Position numbers and translations under genes: made by a program | In this document: one piece after another, positions 499 to 8,838 of the stretch | Position numbering within the stretch: position 1 is the first letter of the stretch | Layout of the letters: each line of letters begins with the position of its first letter | The notes under the pieces: model-generated | What the model was told of the DNA's origin: nothing | Seen by the model: only the letters and a program-made list of their open reading frames with translations | Databases searched by the model: none | Source: Aeromicrobium sp. | GTDB lineage: Bacteria; Actinomycetota; Coriobacteriia; Anaerosomatales; Anaerosomataceae | Direction: 5' to 3' | NCBI GenBank assembly: GCA_015351705.1 | Contig: JADIIM010000045.1 | Coordinates: 1 to 60,655 of the forward strand | DNA length: 60,655 bases

Positions 499-1251
499 CT
501 ACAGCGGTACCACGAGCGGCACGTCGCCCACCGACGTCACGCTCACCGGCACGCCGTAGACCTCCGTGACCGTGGCCGAGGTGACCACCTCCGGGCCGCC
601 ACACGCGTGGACGCGGCCGTCGGCGAGGAACAGGAACGCGTCGGCGAAGCGGAGCGCGAGGTTGAGGTCGTGCATGACCGCGACGACCGCGACGCCCTGC
701 GCGGCGGTCACGCGCTTGACGGTGGCGAGTACGTCGAGCTGGTTGCGCAGGTCCAGACTCGAGGTGGGCTCATCGAGCAGCAGAACGCGCGGCTCCTGCG
801 CGAGTGCGCGGGCGATCACGGTCTTCTGCAACTCGCCGCCCGAGAGCTCGTCGATCGGCCGCATCGCCAGATCTTCCAGCCCCAACTCGGCAAGGACGTG
901 CTCGACCACGTGGTGGTCGTCGTGGCTCGCGTCCCACGTGATGTGCGGCGTGCGGCCCACGAGCACCGCGTCGTACACGGTCATGTGACTCGACTCGGCA
1001 CGCTGCGGCACGTAGCCGATCCGTCGCGCCCGCTCGTTCGCGCGCAGGGCGTGCACGTCCGTCTCACCGAGGTACACGGCGCCACGTCGCGGCCTGACCA
1101 TCCGGGTGATGCACCGGAGCAGTGTGGACTTGCCCGCGCCGTTGTTGCCGAGGACGGCCAGGAACTCGCCGGGCTGCACGACGAAGTCGACGCCGTCGAG
1201 CACCGGCGCGCTGCGGTAGGAGAACGTCACCCCGTCCACGCGCAGCATCAT
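499..1251 (-). CDS. ABC importer ATPase, FecE/BtuD type
   Basis: A 250-residue ATP-binding subunit of an iron-chelate/cobalamin-type importer. Walker A is GNNGAGKST at residues 35-43, the signature is LSGGELQK and Walker B is VLLLDEPTSSLD. Its ATG overlaps the TGA of the permease (ATGA at 1248-1251), so the two are translationally coupled. The same family carries ferric siderophores, heme, cobalamin and some metal chelates. Substrate is not decided by the sequence; a neighbouring glmL-like gene and the B12-dependent ornithine pathway make cobalamin attractive, while the FmdE gene in the same operon points to a metal or pterin cofactor. Confidence 0.93.
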   Translation of the reverse strand: MMLRVDGVTFSYRSAPVLDGVDFVVQPGEFLAVLGNNGAGKSTLLRCITRMVRPRRGAVYLGETDVHALRANERARRIGYVPQRAESSHMTVYDAVLVGRTPHITWDASHDDHHVVEHVLAELGLEDLAMRPIDELSGGELQKTVIARALAQEPRVLLLDEPTSSLDLRNQLDVLATVKRVTAAQGVAVVAVMHDLNLALRFADAFLFLADGRVHACGGPEVVTSATVTEVYGVPVSVTSVGDVPLVVPL

Positions 1252-2324
1252 GCCGACCGCCTCCTCGCGACGAGCAGGTACAGGAACAGCGGCGCGCCGA
1301 GGAACGACGTGATCGCGCCCACCGGCAGCACCACCGGCGAGATGAGCGTGCGGCCGAGCGTGTCGGCGGCGAGGAGCAGCAGCGCACCGGCCGCCGCAGA
1401 GGCTGGCAGCAAGAAGCGGTGGTCGCTTCCCATCACGCGCCTTACGAGGTGCGGACCCACAAGCCCGATGAACCCGATGATGCCGAGGAACGCCACGATC
1501 GCGGCGGTGACGAGCGATGACACGAACATCCCGAGCATCCGCACCCGCTCGACCTCCACGCCCAGCCCGTGCGCGGACTCGGCGCCGGTCTCGAGCGCGT
1601 TGTAGTCCCATCGGTGCCAGAGGAAGTACGCCCCGCACCCCGCGACCGCGGCGGCCATCACGCCTACGTCACGCCAGGTCGCGCGTCCGAGGTCGCCAAA
1701 GGTCCAGAACACCACCGCGGCCACCTGCGTGTCCTCGGCGAAGTACTGCATGAGCGCCGTGCCCGCCGAGAAGAGCGAGCCGAGCGCCACGCCGGCGAGC
1801 ACGATGGTCTCCGGAGTGGCGCCCCGGGTACGCGAGATGGCGAGCACCGCGAGCGTGGCAACCATCGCGCCGGCGAAGGCGGACCCCGCGACCGACCACA
1901 CGTTGGAGATCCGCACCGCGTCTGCCGCGGCGGTGCCGGTCATGCCCGCGCCGAACCCGATGATCGCGAGCGCCGCCCCGAACGCCGCCCCCTGCGAGAT
2001 GCCGAGGGTGAACGGCGAGGCGAGCGGGTTGCGGAGCACGCCCTGCATGACGGCGCCGGCGATCGCAAGCCCGGCGCCCGCCACGATCGCGGCGATGACC
2101 CTCGGCATCCTGATGTTCCAGACGATGAGCGACGCGGGGCCGCCGCCGTCGGCACCGGAAAGCGCGCGGACCACCTCACCGATCGTGAGGCCCGCCGAGC
2201 CCGCCTGGACCGCGTAGACGCCGGTCGCGATGACGGCGAGCGCGAGGGCGGCCGTCACCACCACCTTGCGACGCGTGTATGCCGCGTACCGGGTCCGGTA
2301 CTCTCCCTCGTGTGACACGCTCAC
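1248..2324 (-). CDS. ABC importer permease, FecCD/BtuC family
   Basis: A 358-residue polytopic membrane protein. It contains the family hallmarks: WNIRMPRVIAAIVAGAGLAI near residue 75, the NPLASPFTLGISQGAAFGA loop, and a C-terminal FIGLVGPHLVRRVMGSDHR segment that contacts the ATPase. Length is normal for a FecCD subunit. Start and stop overlap its neighbours by four bases each (2321-2324 and 1248-1251), as in a tight binding protein-permease-ATPase operon. It is expected to act as a homodimer translocating an iron-chelate, cobalamin or similar ligand across the membrane. Confidence 0.93.
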   Translation of the reverse strand: MSVSHEGEYRTRYAAYTRRKVVVTAALALAVIATGVYAVQAGSAGLTIGEVVRALSGADGGGPASLIVWNIRMPRVIAAIVAGAGLAIAGAVMQGVLRNPLASPFTLGISQGAAFGAALAIIGFGAGMTGTAAADAVRISNVWSVAGSAFAGAMVATLAVLAISRTRGATPETIVLAGVALGSLFSAGTALMQYFAEDTQVAAVVFWTFGDLGRATWRDVGVMAAAVAGCGAYFLWHRWDYNALETGAESAHGLGVEVERVRMLGMFVSSLVTAAIVAFLGIIGFIGLVGPHLVRRVMGSDHRFLLPASAAAGALLLLAADTLGRTLISPVVLPVGAITSFLGAPLFLYLLVARRRSA

Positions 2325-3469
2325 TCCCCGCCGAGAAGGTCGATCGTACCGAAGCCCTGGCCGTAGATGGCCACCAGCCGCTCGTAGACCGGCTGGCCGA
2401 CGAGCGCCACCGCGATCTCATCGGCCGTGGCGGCCGGATCCACGTCCGCGAAGCGGTCGGGGAACAGCACCGTACCGGCGAAGTACGCGTCGGCAAGCGC
2501 GATCTCCACGTTGGTGGAGTAGTTGTTGAACGGCAGCTGGGCGTGAACGCGGCCCTCGCGCGACGCGGTCAGACCCTCGTAGAGCCCGCGGTCGGCGATC
2601 ACGTCCTCGCGCACGAGCGAGAGCCCGCCCAGGTCCAGGAAGATGTGCGCCGGGTCCCACGCGACGAGCTGCTCGCGGTCGATCATGACCGAGCCGGTCT
2701 GCTCCACCGAACCCGCGACGTTCGCCGCCCCGATGACCGCCAGCGGCAGGTACTTCGGCTGCGTGCTCTCGATGCCCCGCGCACCCTTGAAGCCGAGCGC
2801 GCCCACGTATGCGGTGGCCTTCTCGGCGGCCGGGATGCCGTCGGTGCGCATCGCGAGGTCGTCGAGCGTGTCGCGCACGTACGCGACCACCTCGGCGGCA
2901 CGCTCGCCGGTGCCGAGCACCTCCCCGATGAGCTCCATCGACGTGAAGAACGGCTCGTCGAGCGTGCCGAGACTGCCGTAGCTGACCACCACGACCGGGA
3001 TGCCCGTCTTGGACTGGAGATCGTCGGCGCCCTTCGCATCGGCGATCTGGTTCACGAAGATGACGTCGGGCGCTGCCGAGAGCAGCCGCTCCGCATCGGG
3101 TGTGGAGTCGGGCCCGCCCGCGCCGATCACGGGGAGTTCGAGCAGCTCAGGGTGAGCGAGCGTGTACGGACGCGCCACCGGCGGCCGTGTCTCGAACTCC
3201 TCGATCCCCACGACCCGCTCGGCGCCGCCCGCGTAGACCACGAGCCGGAGCGTGCCCGAACCGATCGCGGCGATGCGCTTCACGGTACCGGGGACCGTGA
3301 CCACGCGCCCGGCCAGGTCCGTGACCACGCGCTCGGCCGGCTCTGTGACCTCCTGGGCGGCCTCAGGCACCTCGGCCGCGCCGGTCGCACACCCGCCGCT
3401 CACGGCAAGGCCGAGTGCAAGCACCAGCGCCAGCGCGCCGGCGACCATAACGTTCCACGTCCTTCTCAC
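2321..3469 (-). CDS. ABC importer substrate-binding lipoprotein (PF01497 type)
   Basis: A 382-residue protein with a basic N-terminus, a hydrophobic signal and a lipobox (LAVSGGC), so it is a predicted lipoprotein. The mature part starts with the DLAGRVVTVPGTVKRIAAIG segment typical of FepB/BtuF periplasmic-binding proteins, followed by AAPDVIFVNQIADAKG, the usual second motif. The two-lobed helical-backbone fold binds siderophores, heme or cobalamin in this family. It precedes the permease by an ATGA overlap and follows the fmdE-like gene by about 33 bases, so all four are probably co-transcribed. Confidence 0.9.
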   Translation of the reverse strand: MRRTWNVMVAGALALVLALGLAVSGGCATGAAEVPEAAQEVTEPAERVVTDLAGRVVTVPGTVKRIAAIGSGTLRLVVYAGGAERVVGIEEFETRPPVARPYTLAHPELLELPVIGAGGPDSTPDAERLLSAAPDVIFVNQIADAKGADDLQSKTGIPVVVVSYGSLGTLDEPFFTSMELIGEVLGTGERAAEVVAYVRDTLDDLAMRTDGIPAAEKATAYVGALGFKGARGIESTQPKYLPLAVIGAANVAGSVEQTGSVMIDREQLVAWDPAHIFLDLGGLSLVREDVIADRGLYEGLTASREGRVHAQLPFNNYSTNVEIALADAYFAGTVLFPDRFADVDPAATADEIAVALVGQPVYERLVAIYGQGFGTIDLLGGE

Positions 3470-3502: not shown

Positions 3503-4183
3503 CTATACGTTGATCTCCCACCCGCGTCCGTACCGGACCGAGCACGGGATGCAGCAGAACCCGCCGTCGCGCACACGGGCGCGCGGCTCCATGACAGCCT
3601 CACCGCACACCGTGCAGGTGACCGAGTCGAACGCGCCGGCCTTCGGCGGCAGCTCCACCGTGACCTCGGCCACCGTGCCGAACTCGGCCACCGACGCTTC
3701 GGCCAGCTCGAGCGCGCGCTCGACGTGACCCTGCCAGAAGCGCTGCCGCTCCTCATCGGAGGCCTGACCGGACATCACTCGCGACTTGAGCGCCGTTCGC
3801 TCCGGATCCGGCGCGAACGCGTCTGAGCGCAGCGCGACCCGCACTCCGCGCCCGTCGGCGCGCCTGACGAGCGTGAACGCCTGCTTGCCGTAGTCGCGGT
3901 AGATGAGATTGCCCTTGCCGAGCGTGCAGCCGGTGAGGTACTGGAAGGCGTCGATGCCACACGCGTCGGTCTCGACGATCCCCACGAGATCTTCGTCGGT
4001 CCCGCGCTTCACGCCGAGCCGCTCCATCGCGATCAGCGCGGCGCGATAGCCGATCGTGAGACCCGGGCAAAGGTGCCCGTGGAAGTCCACAGCCTCCCGG
4101 AAGTCAGCGGGCATACGCTCCCGGACCTCAGGCGCCAGCCTCTCCGATGCTCGCAGCGGTCGCTGCTCACCTGTCGTAGTCAT
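3503..4183 (-). CDS. FmdE-family protein with C-terminal zinc finger
   Basis: A 226-residue cytoplasmic protein. The N-terminal domain carries the FmdE signature VDFHGHLCPGLTIGYRAAL near residues 28-46, with the HGHxCPG metal-ligand pattern, and a second part DACGIDAFQYLTGCTLGKGN. The C-terminus has a four-cysteine zinc-ribbon (CTVCGE...CCIPC). FmdE was named from the molybdenum formylmethanofuran dehydrogenase operon, but bacterial members often sit beside metal or cofactor importers. I use the ATG at 4183, which has AGGGG five bases upstream; a longer frame from 4213 lacks that. It is the first gene after a structured leader with an intrinsic terminator. Biochemical role unknown. Confidence 0.88.
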   Translation of the reverse strand: MTTTGEQRPLRASERLAPEVRERMPADFREAVDFHGHLCPGLTIGYRAALIAMERLGVKRGTDEDLVGIVETDACGIDAFQYLTGCTLGKGNLIYRDYGKQAFTLVRRADGRGVRVALRSDAFAPDPERTALKSRVMSGQASDEERQRFWQGHVERALELAEASVAEFGTVAEVTVELPPKAGAFDSVTCTVCGEAVMEPRARVRDGGFCCIPCSVRYGRGWEINV

Positions 4184-4210
4184 CGAGTCCCCTCGCCTCT
4201 CGCACCCGGA

Positions 4211-4250
4211 CAACAGAAAAGACCACGGCGACGTCGTGTCGCTCGTGGCC
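4211..4250 (-). terminator. Intrinsic terminator inside the fmdE leader
   Basis: On the minus strand GGCCACG (4250-4244) pairs with CGTGGTC (4227-4221), and after a bulged A, GCGAC (4242-4238) pairs with GTCGC (4232-4228) around a five-base loop; TTTTCTGTT follows. It lies between the promoter and the fmdE ribosome-binding site, so it would act as an attenuator rather than end an upstream gene. Confidence 0.65.
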
Positions 4251-4340
4251 TCGGATGGCCCTCGTGTGTACCGAACTCCTGCGTGCCGTGCATTCCGTCA
4301 CCCGGCGGCTCATGCCGCCCCGGCGCGCCTTCGTGGCGCA
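4251..4340 (-). promoter_or_regulatory. Structured 5' leader, candidate riboswitch aptamer
   Basis: Between the promoter and the terminator, the leader folds by eye into several hairpins: GCGCC/GGCGC around 4326-4340 and GGCGG/CCGCC around 4300-4320, then a less regular GC-rich segment. The order promoter, structured RNA, intrinsic terminator, ribosome-binding site is typical of a transcriptional riboswitch. I could not match it by eye to the cobalamin or molybdenum-cofactor consensus. Either ligand would make sense for the downstream genes. Confidence 0.4.
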
Positions 4341-4345
4341 CGCTC

Positions 4346-4375
4346 ATGCTAGCCGAGCACGGACTGGGGCGTCAA
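4346..4375 (-). promoter_or_regulatory. Sigma-70-type promoter of the fmdE-ABC operon
   Basis: Reading the minus strand, TTGACG (4375-4370) is followed after 18 bases by TAGCAT (4351-4346). Transcription would begin near 4339, giving a leader of about 155 bases before the fmdE start. Confidence 0.6.
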
Positions 4376-4395
4376 TGCGCACGCCGCGAACGCCC

Positions 4396-4430
4396 GGGAG
4401 CGCTCCCGCCCGGTCTGCGGAAGCGCTCCC
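4396..4430 (-). terminator. Hairpin downstream of the di-heme protein gene
   Basis: GGGAGCGCT (4396-4404) and AGCGCTCCC (4422-4430) form a 9-bp perfect stem just after the stop of the large gene at 4478. No clear T-run follows on either strand, so it may be a factor-dependent or weak terminator, or an RNA-stabilising end. Confidence 0.4.
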
Positions 4431-4477
4431 TCGACCACACGCGCCCTTACAGCGCGCTCCCCCCTGTCGGAGACGGT

Positions 4478-7400
4478 CTACTCAAGCAGCTGTGGTGCAG
4501 CCACCGCCTCGGCGATCGCCTGGTTGTGCTCGAAGACGTAGGGCATGATGCGACGGAGGTATGTGTCCATCTCGTACTTCGACGCATCGTCCACCGTCGG
4601 ATCGAACAGCCCCTCATCGTTCCAGCAGACGTACGCCTTGGAGGCGTCCGCCGAGAGCTTCACCTGGGCCTCGCCCTGCATCGACTCTCCCTTGCACAGG
4701 TAGAACGGTCGGAAGACCGTCTCGCCCGCGTGATTGCCGGAGCTGTCGATCGGGACCGTCTTCTCCTCGAAGACCCACGTGTCGCCCCAGTCGACGCTGT
4801 AGGTGTACATCAGGTCGAGCGGCATCTTCCCGTGGTCCTCTTCGTCCTCCGATTCCTGGTTTCCGTGGATCATGCCGTGCGTGGCGCCAGTACCGAACGT
4901 AAGCCACATGTTGGAGAGGTCCTCCGCATCCTCGGGATACGCCGACCCCGCCACCACAGGCCCCGGAGGTACGATGCGCGGCTCGATCACGTTCTCGCGG
5001 TTGTTGGTGAACTTGGAGATGTTGCGCGCCGGCTCGAAGCCGCCGGCCGGGATGCTGACCGTGACCTCCACACTCGGCTCCACGCCGATGGTCGACTCGT
5101 TGGCGCGTGGATTGCGGAACACCTCGGACCACACTGCGCCCTGGCCGGCATACTCGTACACGCCGTACTTGTCGGTCGCGGGCGTGGTGGTGAAGGTCTT
5201 CCCGCCGTCGAACGAGCGACGCACGTACAGGTTGTAGATGTCGTTGCCGTTGCGCGCCGAGCGCCAGTTCGGCGTCCACGTGTAACCGATCACCAGCAGT
5301 TCACCGCGCAGATACCCGCGCTGTGCCTGCGCGTTGTCCCACGCGTACTCCCACGAGTAGTCGTTCAGGTTGGTAGCGTCCTGCGTCCAGCGCACCAGCT
5401 TGATGCCCTTGTCCGGGTCCTCCTGATCCGGGTTCTCCCAGAACCCGCCGGGATAGTCCGGGTGGTCTGCCGGAGTGACCGCACTCACGTTCAGTGACCC
5501 TGGCGCAATGCGCGCGGGAGCGTACGGATTGCCGGTCTGCCACACACCACTGACCTTCTTGATCGGCCATCTCCTGATGAAGATGTCCGAGGGCCCACCG
5601 CGGCCGGCCTCACCCTGCTTGTAGACCATGACTATGACGGTACCCTCGGTCTTGGTGCCCGAGTTGTCTCGCTTGGCCATCTCGGCACCCTGGACGAGGA
5701 AGCGGGGGCGACGTGCGTTCTCGTATGCCGGGATGCGGTCGCCCCTCCAGTCGAGCATCTCGGTGCCGTCCTCGTTGAGCACCCATGCGGGCTCGAGCGT
5801 CTCCGGATCCACCGCCTGGAGGTTGAGGATCTTCCCACCGTGGACACGGTCCGGGCTCATCATGTCGAAGCTGTGGTAGACGATGTTCTTGCCGATGTCC
5901 GGCTTGTAGCGGCCGCCGCCCTTCTCCTCGTCCGGATCAGGCGTCTCGGTGCTCTCATCAGATGCGTACGGGTCGGGCACCTGGTAGGCGTGGGCGTCGG
6001 CGTGGCAGTTGATGCACTGCTCCTCGTCCCAGCGCCCGTCGTGCATGATGCCGTGGCAGTCGGCACACGGCGAATCACTCACCGCGTCATCGCAGTCAGA
6101 CACGGAGTCCCCATCCTCGTGGTCAGGGTCGTCGGTGTCGTGGTGCGCCTGCGGCATGCCGCCGCCGAGGCCCTTGCTCTCCTCGTAGGCGAGGATCACC
6201 CACGCGCTCTTCTTGCCGTCGGGCTTGGTGTAGCCCTGGAGGAACAACGCAGGCCTGGTCGAGGCCGTGTCACCGTCGAGCAAGCGCCCGTCTGCGGTGA
6301 TGGCGACCTTCTTGGGCACGCCCTTCTTGTTGACCGTCTCGTGCCAATCCGCGATGACCCCGGGGACCTTGTACGCGTAGTTGTGCGTCCCGACCTCGCG
6401 CACCTCTCCGGTCTCCTCGTCGACTTCGGTGATCGGCGTCCAGGTGGACGGATCGAGCGGGTCGCCCTTGGGGTAACCGACCTGCTCGGTGGTGCAGAGC
6501 GACGCCTCGACATCCGCGTCCGTCCACACCTCGACCTTGATGTTGTTGGTGTTGATCGTCTCGTTGTCGGTCACGCGGACCGGCAGTGCGAACGGGACGA
6601 GCGCCTTCGGGCGACCGCGCATCTCCTCGTCGTCTGGCCAGTCGTGCGACGGATCGCCGCCCGACACCCAGTCGTAGTCGATGTCGTCGAAGTCGTCCAT
6701 ATGGATGTAGCTGTACCAGACGTCGGTGCCATGACTTGCGATGGCTCCGCTCCAGCCAACGCCGGAGCCCTTGCCCTGCCCGGGGCGGATGCCCTCGGGA
6801 TCCTCCTGCCAGGCAATGGCGAAGCCGGCGAGGTTGCCCGCCGATGCCTCAACGAGCTGCATCGCGTTACGGCGACCCGAGGTCAGCCGCTCGGGCTTGT
6901 ACCAGACGATGTCGCCCGTGGCTTTGTCGATCACGCCGCGCTGAGTCCAGACCGCGTTGTACGGGAGCTCACCCACCTCTGGGAACCCTTTGTCGACGTA
7001 CGTGTAGTCGGTGGAGCGCTGCGGACCGCCCACGCCCCAGATGTCTTCGACGTAGTAGGGATGCGTCGTCTCGAGCGAGTACCGAGGCTTGCCGCTCTTG
7101 GCGTACTTGCTCGTCCACACGATGAGGATCTTGTTGTCCTTCACGTGCAGCGATGGCTTCTCGCACCCGCCGTAGAACTCCTGACCGTTGGCCAGCGTGA
7201 ATGACGAGCGATCTGCGCTCCGCGAGAGGTTCTTCCGCTTCCACGTCTCGCCATCGTCGCGCGATACCGCCGCCCAGACGTCGAGCGCACCGGTGTCCGG
7301 ATGCTCGTCCAGGTAGCACATCACGATCGGCTGCGCCTCATCGCGCGTGCCGATGAGATCGCCGTGCTCGTCGTGATACTCGATCGTCGTGGTCGTGCCA

Positions 7401-8720: not shown

Positions 8721-8755
8721 CAACACAAAGACCGACCCAAGAACTGGGTCGGTCT
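8721..8755 (-). terminator. Intrinsic terminator in the leader of the di-heme protein gene
   Basis: Arms 8729-8739 and 8745-8755 form a perfect 11-bp stem with a five-base loop; on the minus strand it is followed by TTGTGTTG. It lies about 140 bases upstream of the start codon and downstream of the predicted promoter, so it is placed to attenuate this gene. Confidence 0.75.
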
Positions 8756-8760
8756 CACCA

Positions 8761-8820
8761 TTGGCTCCCCGCCGGATACTCAGAGGTGACCGGACCTCCG
8801 GCGGCTCACAGCCCCCCAAC
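8761..8820 (-). promoter_or_regulatory. Structured RNA element, candidate riboswitch
   Basis: On the minus strand the segment directly before the terminator has nested pairings: AGCC/GGCT (8810-8813 with 8763-8766), CCGCCGG/CCGGCGG (8798-8804 with 8769-8775) and AGGT/ACCT (8794-8797 with 8784-8787). Conspicuous unpaired purine-rich stretches lie between them (CTGAGTAT, GGGGAGCC). The compact stem with internal loops next to a strong terminator looks like an aptamer with an expression platform. I could not assign it to a known class by eye. Confidence 0.45.
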
Positions 8821-8838
8821 TCGAGTGCGAGCGTACAG

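Follow-up and report, generated by a model that had tools for sequence, protein, structure and literature searches.

What controls the importer operon that begins with fmdE in this genome, and what does the operon import? The window (the whole stretch of 60,655 nucleotides that was analyzed, from genome G000) carries the operon on its minus strand, in the order fmdE, substrate-binding protein, FecCD-type permease, and ATPase, behind a structured leader. The first-pass annotation saw a riboswitch layout here (a clear promoter, about 155 bases of leader with several hairpins, and an intrinsic terminator 5' of the ribosome-binding site) and expected the class of the leader to reveal the substrate. 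We postulate that the leader attenuates transcription of a nickel-import operon in response to nickel, standing in for the repressor NikR, and we give this reading a probability of roughly one-half. The features, in the direction of transcription, are as follows.

4346 to 4375, minus strand: promoter, with -35 hexamer TTGACG (4375-4370), an 18-bp spacer, and -10 hexamer TAGCAT (4351-4346).
4323 to 4341, minus strand: hairpin P1, located at the transcript's 5' end, with the stem GUGCGCC/GGCGCGC and an ACGAA loop (4334-4330) that is invariant.
4304 to 4319, minus strand: hairpin P2, GGCGGC/GCCGCC.
4262 to 4268, minus strand: conserved element CACACGA, directly 5' of P3, which opens the conserved 3' block.
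4247 to 4260, minus strand: hairpin P3, GGCC-AUCCGA-GGCC, a candidate antiterminator.
4220 to 4251, minus strand: hairpin P4, the intrinsic terminator; its 13-bp stem has one bulge and an energy of about -21 kcal/mol.
4217 to 4220, minus strand: terminator U-run UUUU, by sequence.
4189 to 4194, minus strand: ribosome-binding site GAGGGG, by sequence.
3503 to 4183, minus strand: fmdE, with an FmdE core (PF02663) and a C4 zinc finger.
2321 to 3469, minus strand: substrate-binding protein (PF01497), nearest solved chain 2etv.
1248 to 2324, minus strand: FecCD/BtuC-type permease.
499 to 1254, minus strand: importer ATPase.

The promoter and terminator proposed by the first-pass annotation were both borne out. 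TTGACG-18-TAGCAT is the sole promoter-like site in 2 kb, where shuffled sequences yield 0.1, and is the predicted sigma-70-type promoter of fmdE. Some 155 nt of leader with several hairpins follow, from about 4342 to 4184; the total folding energy of the leader is ordinary (z = -1.28), so that the case for it rests on conservation. A terminator as strong as the 13-bp stem with its UUUU tail arose in 0 of 1,000 dinucleotide shuffles of the leader, and a G+C-rich hairpin followed by a U-run stands between the promoter and the start codon (ATG at 4183), as in a transcription attenuator. From the U-run to the start codon there are only about 30 to 45 nt, as read from the sequence of the four leaders described below. 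This leaves no space for a second promoter, so that expression of fmdE, and of the importer genes behind it, needs read-through of the terminator.

Searches for the fmdE protein covered 99 relatives and the family of 27 genomes. Six of the 27 encode it at full length, and the five other proteins are 62 to 84% identical to that of the window. Four of the six (G000, G001, G009, and G024, from three genera) have a leader with the arrangement promoter-P1-P2-P3-P4. The promoter recurs in all three relatives with the 18-bp spacer and with hexamers read as TTGACG/TAGCAT twice and TTGCCC/TAGGAT once. P1, with 7 to 10 pairs and an invariant ACGAA loop, lies at the 5' end of all four transcripts; the 60-kb window has no other ACGAA hairpin whose stem reaches 5 bp. 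P2 could be read in each leader 15 to 16 nt past the start of the P1 loop; one of its C-G pairs is U-A in two relatives, and its loop varies. Conservation is highest in the 3' block of CACACGA, P3, and P4, where 37 of 50 columns do not vary; in the middle of the leader 2 of 37 are constant. In G009 and G024 the U-run is shorter or broken.

The covariation across homologous leaders that was suggested as a check was found, as three pairs changed on both sides in only four sequences. Two P1 pairs are altered on both sides, P3 carries the double change GACC/GGUC in G024, and 100% of cells are paired in P1, in P3, and in the terminator helix across the four genomes. Slid controls gave no or one double change for P1 and P3. 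Shuffle controls were only moderate (15 of 500 for P1 and P3 together), since four sequences provide little power. When the G012 remnant described below was added, 8 of 120 arm swaps of P1 folded as well as the real arms, so that covariation in P1 is no more than suggestive.

A covariance model built from the four leaders recovered only its four sources and a decayed copy in G012 (E = 1.4e-5), so the leader appears to be narrow in range. Against 396 genomes of the class, the model produced no further standout member, and the remaining matches that were read (E of 4e-4 to 0.01) had no related context. We regard the leader as a putative element known from four intact copies in one family. The decayed fmdE-type operon (L106, G012:C1:124389-124468) belongs to a fourth genus; its promoter and P1 survive before broken permease and ATPase fragments. 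Several candidates were rejected. Six weak class matches (L155 to L160), some of them ordinary terminators, have no fmdE or metal-transport context; four others (L107, L108, L111, and L125, near E of 0.002 to 0.03) lie in unrelated contexts; and sites elsewhere that differ from the terminator core at one or two positions are not surrounded by a similar leader.

The ordinary folding energy, together with a variable leader middle in which no aptamer is obvious, would also suit a leader that does not regulate. It could be a constitutive partial terminator that reduces expression of the operon, or the promoter could serve a stable small RNA; P1 would then act as an operator in the DNA or stabilize the 5' end. 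P1 does sit at the transcription start, a frequent operator position. We nevertheless consider such a leader improbable, because G-U pairs in P1 break the DNA dyad symmetry and keep the RNA pairing, because P3 is maintained through a double change although one terminator pair is weakened to U-G, and because the leader does not occur together with NikR.

An attenuator that responds to nickel could work as follows. RNA polymerase would start near 4342 and make P1 and P2. If P4 then formed, polymerase would stop at the U-run and the importer would be off; if P4 were blocked, polymerase would pass and the importer would be on. The 3' arm of P3 is part of the 5' arm of P4 (the common GGCC strand), which should make the two hairpins mutually exclusive, and P3 is the best candidate switch partner of P4. 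The 4-bp P3 alone is too weak against the 13-bp P4, so that a bound factor or cotranscriptional timing would be required: P3 with a bound factor or metal may delay or block P4, and nickel sufficiency would favor P4 and hence termination. The best sign that P3, a single 4-bp helix, matters comes from G024, where a G-C pair of P3 has become A-U on both sides despite the change of a terminator pair to U-G. A different antiterminator, formed by a P1 strand and the 5' arm of the terminator, is possible in the window and lost in G024, and we rejected it. A leader peptide was likewise rejected: a GTG frame could open at P1, but the relatives do not preserve it.

No Rfam family matched the leader, either at the gathering threshold over the window or at E ≤ 10 over positions 4100 to 4500; this holds for the cobalamin (RF00174) and molybdenum cofactor (RF01055) riboswitches that the first-pass annotation had singled out and for the NiCo riboswitch (RF02683). 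The expectation that the leader class would name the substrate thus failed, and the substrate has to be read from genome context. The riboswitch reading is partly supported: the conserved promoter, leader, and terminator, the need for read-through, and the overlap of P3 with P4 all stand, while membership in any known riboswitch class does not. We therefore describe the leader as an attenuator outside the known Rfam classes. Elsewhere in the window (8738 to 8825, minus strand) there is a c-di-GMP-II-GAG riboswitch (RF03169; 62 bits, cut-off 40), about 150 nt upstream of a gene for a large exported protein whose frame ends at 4478.

The operon proteins themselves say little about the substrate. 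None of the four reached an NCBIfam equivalog cut-off (for the ATPase, among the matches listed). The nearest solved chain to the binding protein is 2etv, annotated as a putative iron(III)-binding protein, and HI1472 is among the weaker relatives, so that homology gives no pointer to nickel. A literature search for TM0189, presumed to be the nearest solved binding protein, returned nothing. FmdE carries the motifs HGHLC and ETDAC at the known FmdE metal site. Genes of the FmdE family mostly adjoin metal-ion transporters, and one solved member has zinc and nickel in the metal site (PMC2954224). Its crystals came from protein purified over nickel resin (PMC2954224), so that this nickel may be an artifact.

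Genomes with NikR provide the first evidence from context. In G006 and G014, the fmdE operon has no leader and lies between cbiO-cbiQ-nikR and cbiM, with NikR_C, CbiM, and CbiQ confirmed by Pfam. The fmdE and cbiM promoters of these two genomes, and the cbiM promoters of G008, G010, and G015, carry GTAGCACGA and, at a distance of exactly 20 bp, a second RTARCAC copy. Beyond these promoters, the 621 kb searched contain this 20-bp-spaced GTARCAC-type repeat once more, at an fmdE in G074. Direct GTARCAC-type copies exactly 20 bp apart are probably the NikR operator in these Coriobacteriia. Sites of this type lie at 3187 and 6992 of L059, at 4378 and 8169 of L060, and in L055, L056, and L058. The G074 copy, GTAACACGGAATTCAATTTCGTAACAC (L150, 6573 to 6599, minus strand), has the same spacing and lies between a DtxR-type gene and the fmdE relative, whose operon adjoins that gene.

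The window itself does not look like part of a NikR regulon: there is no NikR_C in G000 and no 20-bp repeat in the window. NikR is absent from all four leader genomes (G000, G001, G009, and G024). The leader is therefore found in 4 of 4 fmdE genomes that lack NikR and in 0 of 2 that have it (Fisher p = 0.067 for six genomes, with phylogeny ignored), and it would occupy the place that the NikR repressor holds in the sister genomes.

CooT and the hyp genes provide the second. The CooT family includes a studied member that binds nickel with a Kd of 9 nM (PMC6006190). CooT is present in all four leader genomes and, more broadly, in 18 of 22 genomes without NikR compared to 0 of 5 with it (Fisher p = 0.0016, uncorrected for relatedness); three of the four genomes that lack both are 70 to 86% complete, and the fourth is G003. 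Most relatives have two cbiM genes; G000, G009, and G024 each have a single one, with G024 at only 77% completeness. In these three, at loci L084, L089, and L099, the run trxB-trxA-DUF3842-CooT-MCEGG leads toward hypF without cbiMQO (names other than CooT were read from the sequence). A single CbiM together with a CooT-hypF locus that lacks cbiMQO suggests that the fmdE importer replaces the second CbiMQO. In a Firmicute, a relative of fmdE comes after hypF-hypD-hypE, as read from the sequence.

This context points to nickel as the probable substrate and signal. The same read-through mechanism could serve another metal or cofactor, such as cobalt, iron, molybdate or tungstate, heme, or a corrinoid: FecCD/BtuCD importers carry many substrates, the binding protein resembles the putative iron(III) binder and weakly HI1472, CbiM families also carry cobalt, the name FmdE derives from an operon for a molybdenum enzyme, and the G074 operon has a DtxR-type neighbor. 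We think a substrate other than nickel unlikely, because sister genomes have NikR and its repeat at this operon, because CooT and hypF belong to the context, and because the cobalamin and molybdenum cofactor riboswitches gave no match.

A separate RNA element precedes cbiM. Fifteen family genomes without NikR have a conserved element in the gap between MCEGG and cbiM (about 90 nt; alignment A4, loci L064 to L080), for which there was no Rfam match. It comprises a hairpin GGCCC-loop-GGGCC, a hairpin GCG..CC-NCGAA-GG..CGC, and CACGA plus variable bases, which pair with the GTG start codon and the bases just 5' of it. The duplex covaries: a genome's own pairings beat pairings between genera, and 18 of 40,320 permutations were equally good (one sequence per genus). 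A model of the element, scanned against the class, found its 15 loci and no convincing others. G003, which has no CooT, has 19 nt before cbiM and no element. The element has the appearance of a switch that controls translation of the other importer.

The second hairpin of the cbiM element resembles P1 of the fmdE leader, and the weak cross-matches between the two models (E of 0.8 and 0.015) fall on this ACGAA-type hairpin. These matches are marginal and cover one hairpin only, and a common model for the two leaders was rejected. CooT occurs in every genome with either intact element, although for the cbiM element this may be mere linkage, because CooT and cbiM share an operon.

Nickel might bind the RNA, which would make the leader a new riboswitch class, or act through a protein, for which CooT and FmdE are candidates. 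The conserved terminator sequence and ACGAA loop, together with the variable middle, fit a protein reader as well as a metabolite aptamer. A special case of nickel attenuation would have an RNA-binding protein, perhaps a nickel-binding member of the CooT family or the zinc-finger protein FmdE, recognizing the ACGAA hairpin, the terminator block, or both. The ACGAA loop is invariant while the P1 stem changes, the primary sequence of the terminator is conserved beyond need, and the similar GCG..CC-ACGAA-GG..CGC hairpin and the distribution of CooT could be explained in the same way. CooT and FmdE are no more than candidate RNA binders, and both the marginal cross-matches and the possible linkage of CooT to cbiM weigh against this reading; we hold a protein reader to be a tentative and rather unlikely idea.

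Taking the two elements together, we speculate that RNA-based nickel sensing of a new kind has replaced NikR in these Coriobacteriia, through a terminator leader at fmdE and sequestration of the start codon at cbiM. The reader would be nickel itself, in an importer riboswitch class that is new and off with metal, or a nickel-binding CooT-family protein on hairpins with ACGAA loops. In this full form, the scheme is unlikely. The fmdE leader and the separate cbiM element make an answer at the RNA level directly testable, and a nickel reading would give FmdE-type importers a function and perhaps CooT a regulatory role.

Among known systems, cobalamin riboswitches upstream of btuFCD or of nickel/cobalt importers are likewise leaders of BtuCD/FecCD-type importer operons, and they differ in that RF00174 finds no match in the fmdE leader even at E = 10. 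The NiCo (czcD) riboswitch is, like the leader proposed here, a metal-ion RNA regulator of a nickel/cobalt transporter that acts at the level of transcription. That class controls exporters and turns on with metal, whereas the fmdE leader, which matches it in neither sequence nor structure, precedes an importer. Protein-dependent attenuators of the LicT, ANTAR, and TRAP types also have hairpins with conserved loops that overlap a terminator; their loop sequences are unlike ACGAA, and the A1/G4 hexaloops of the ANTAR type are not seen in the fmdE leader. The E. coli NikR operator is a palindrome, whereas the copies in these Coriobacteriia are in direct orientation. NikR-regulated nickel operons rely on a protein repressor on DNA, and G000 has no NikR_C; their likeness to the window is that the same operon stands under the NikR-type repeat in G006 and G014.
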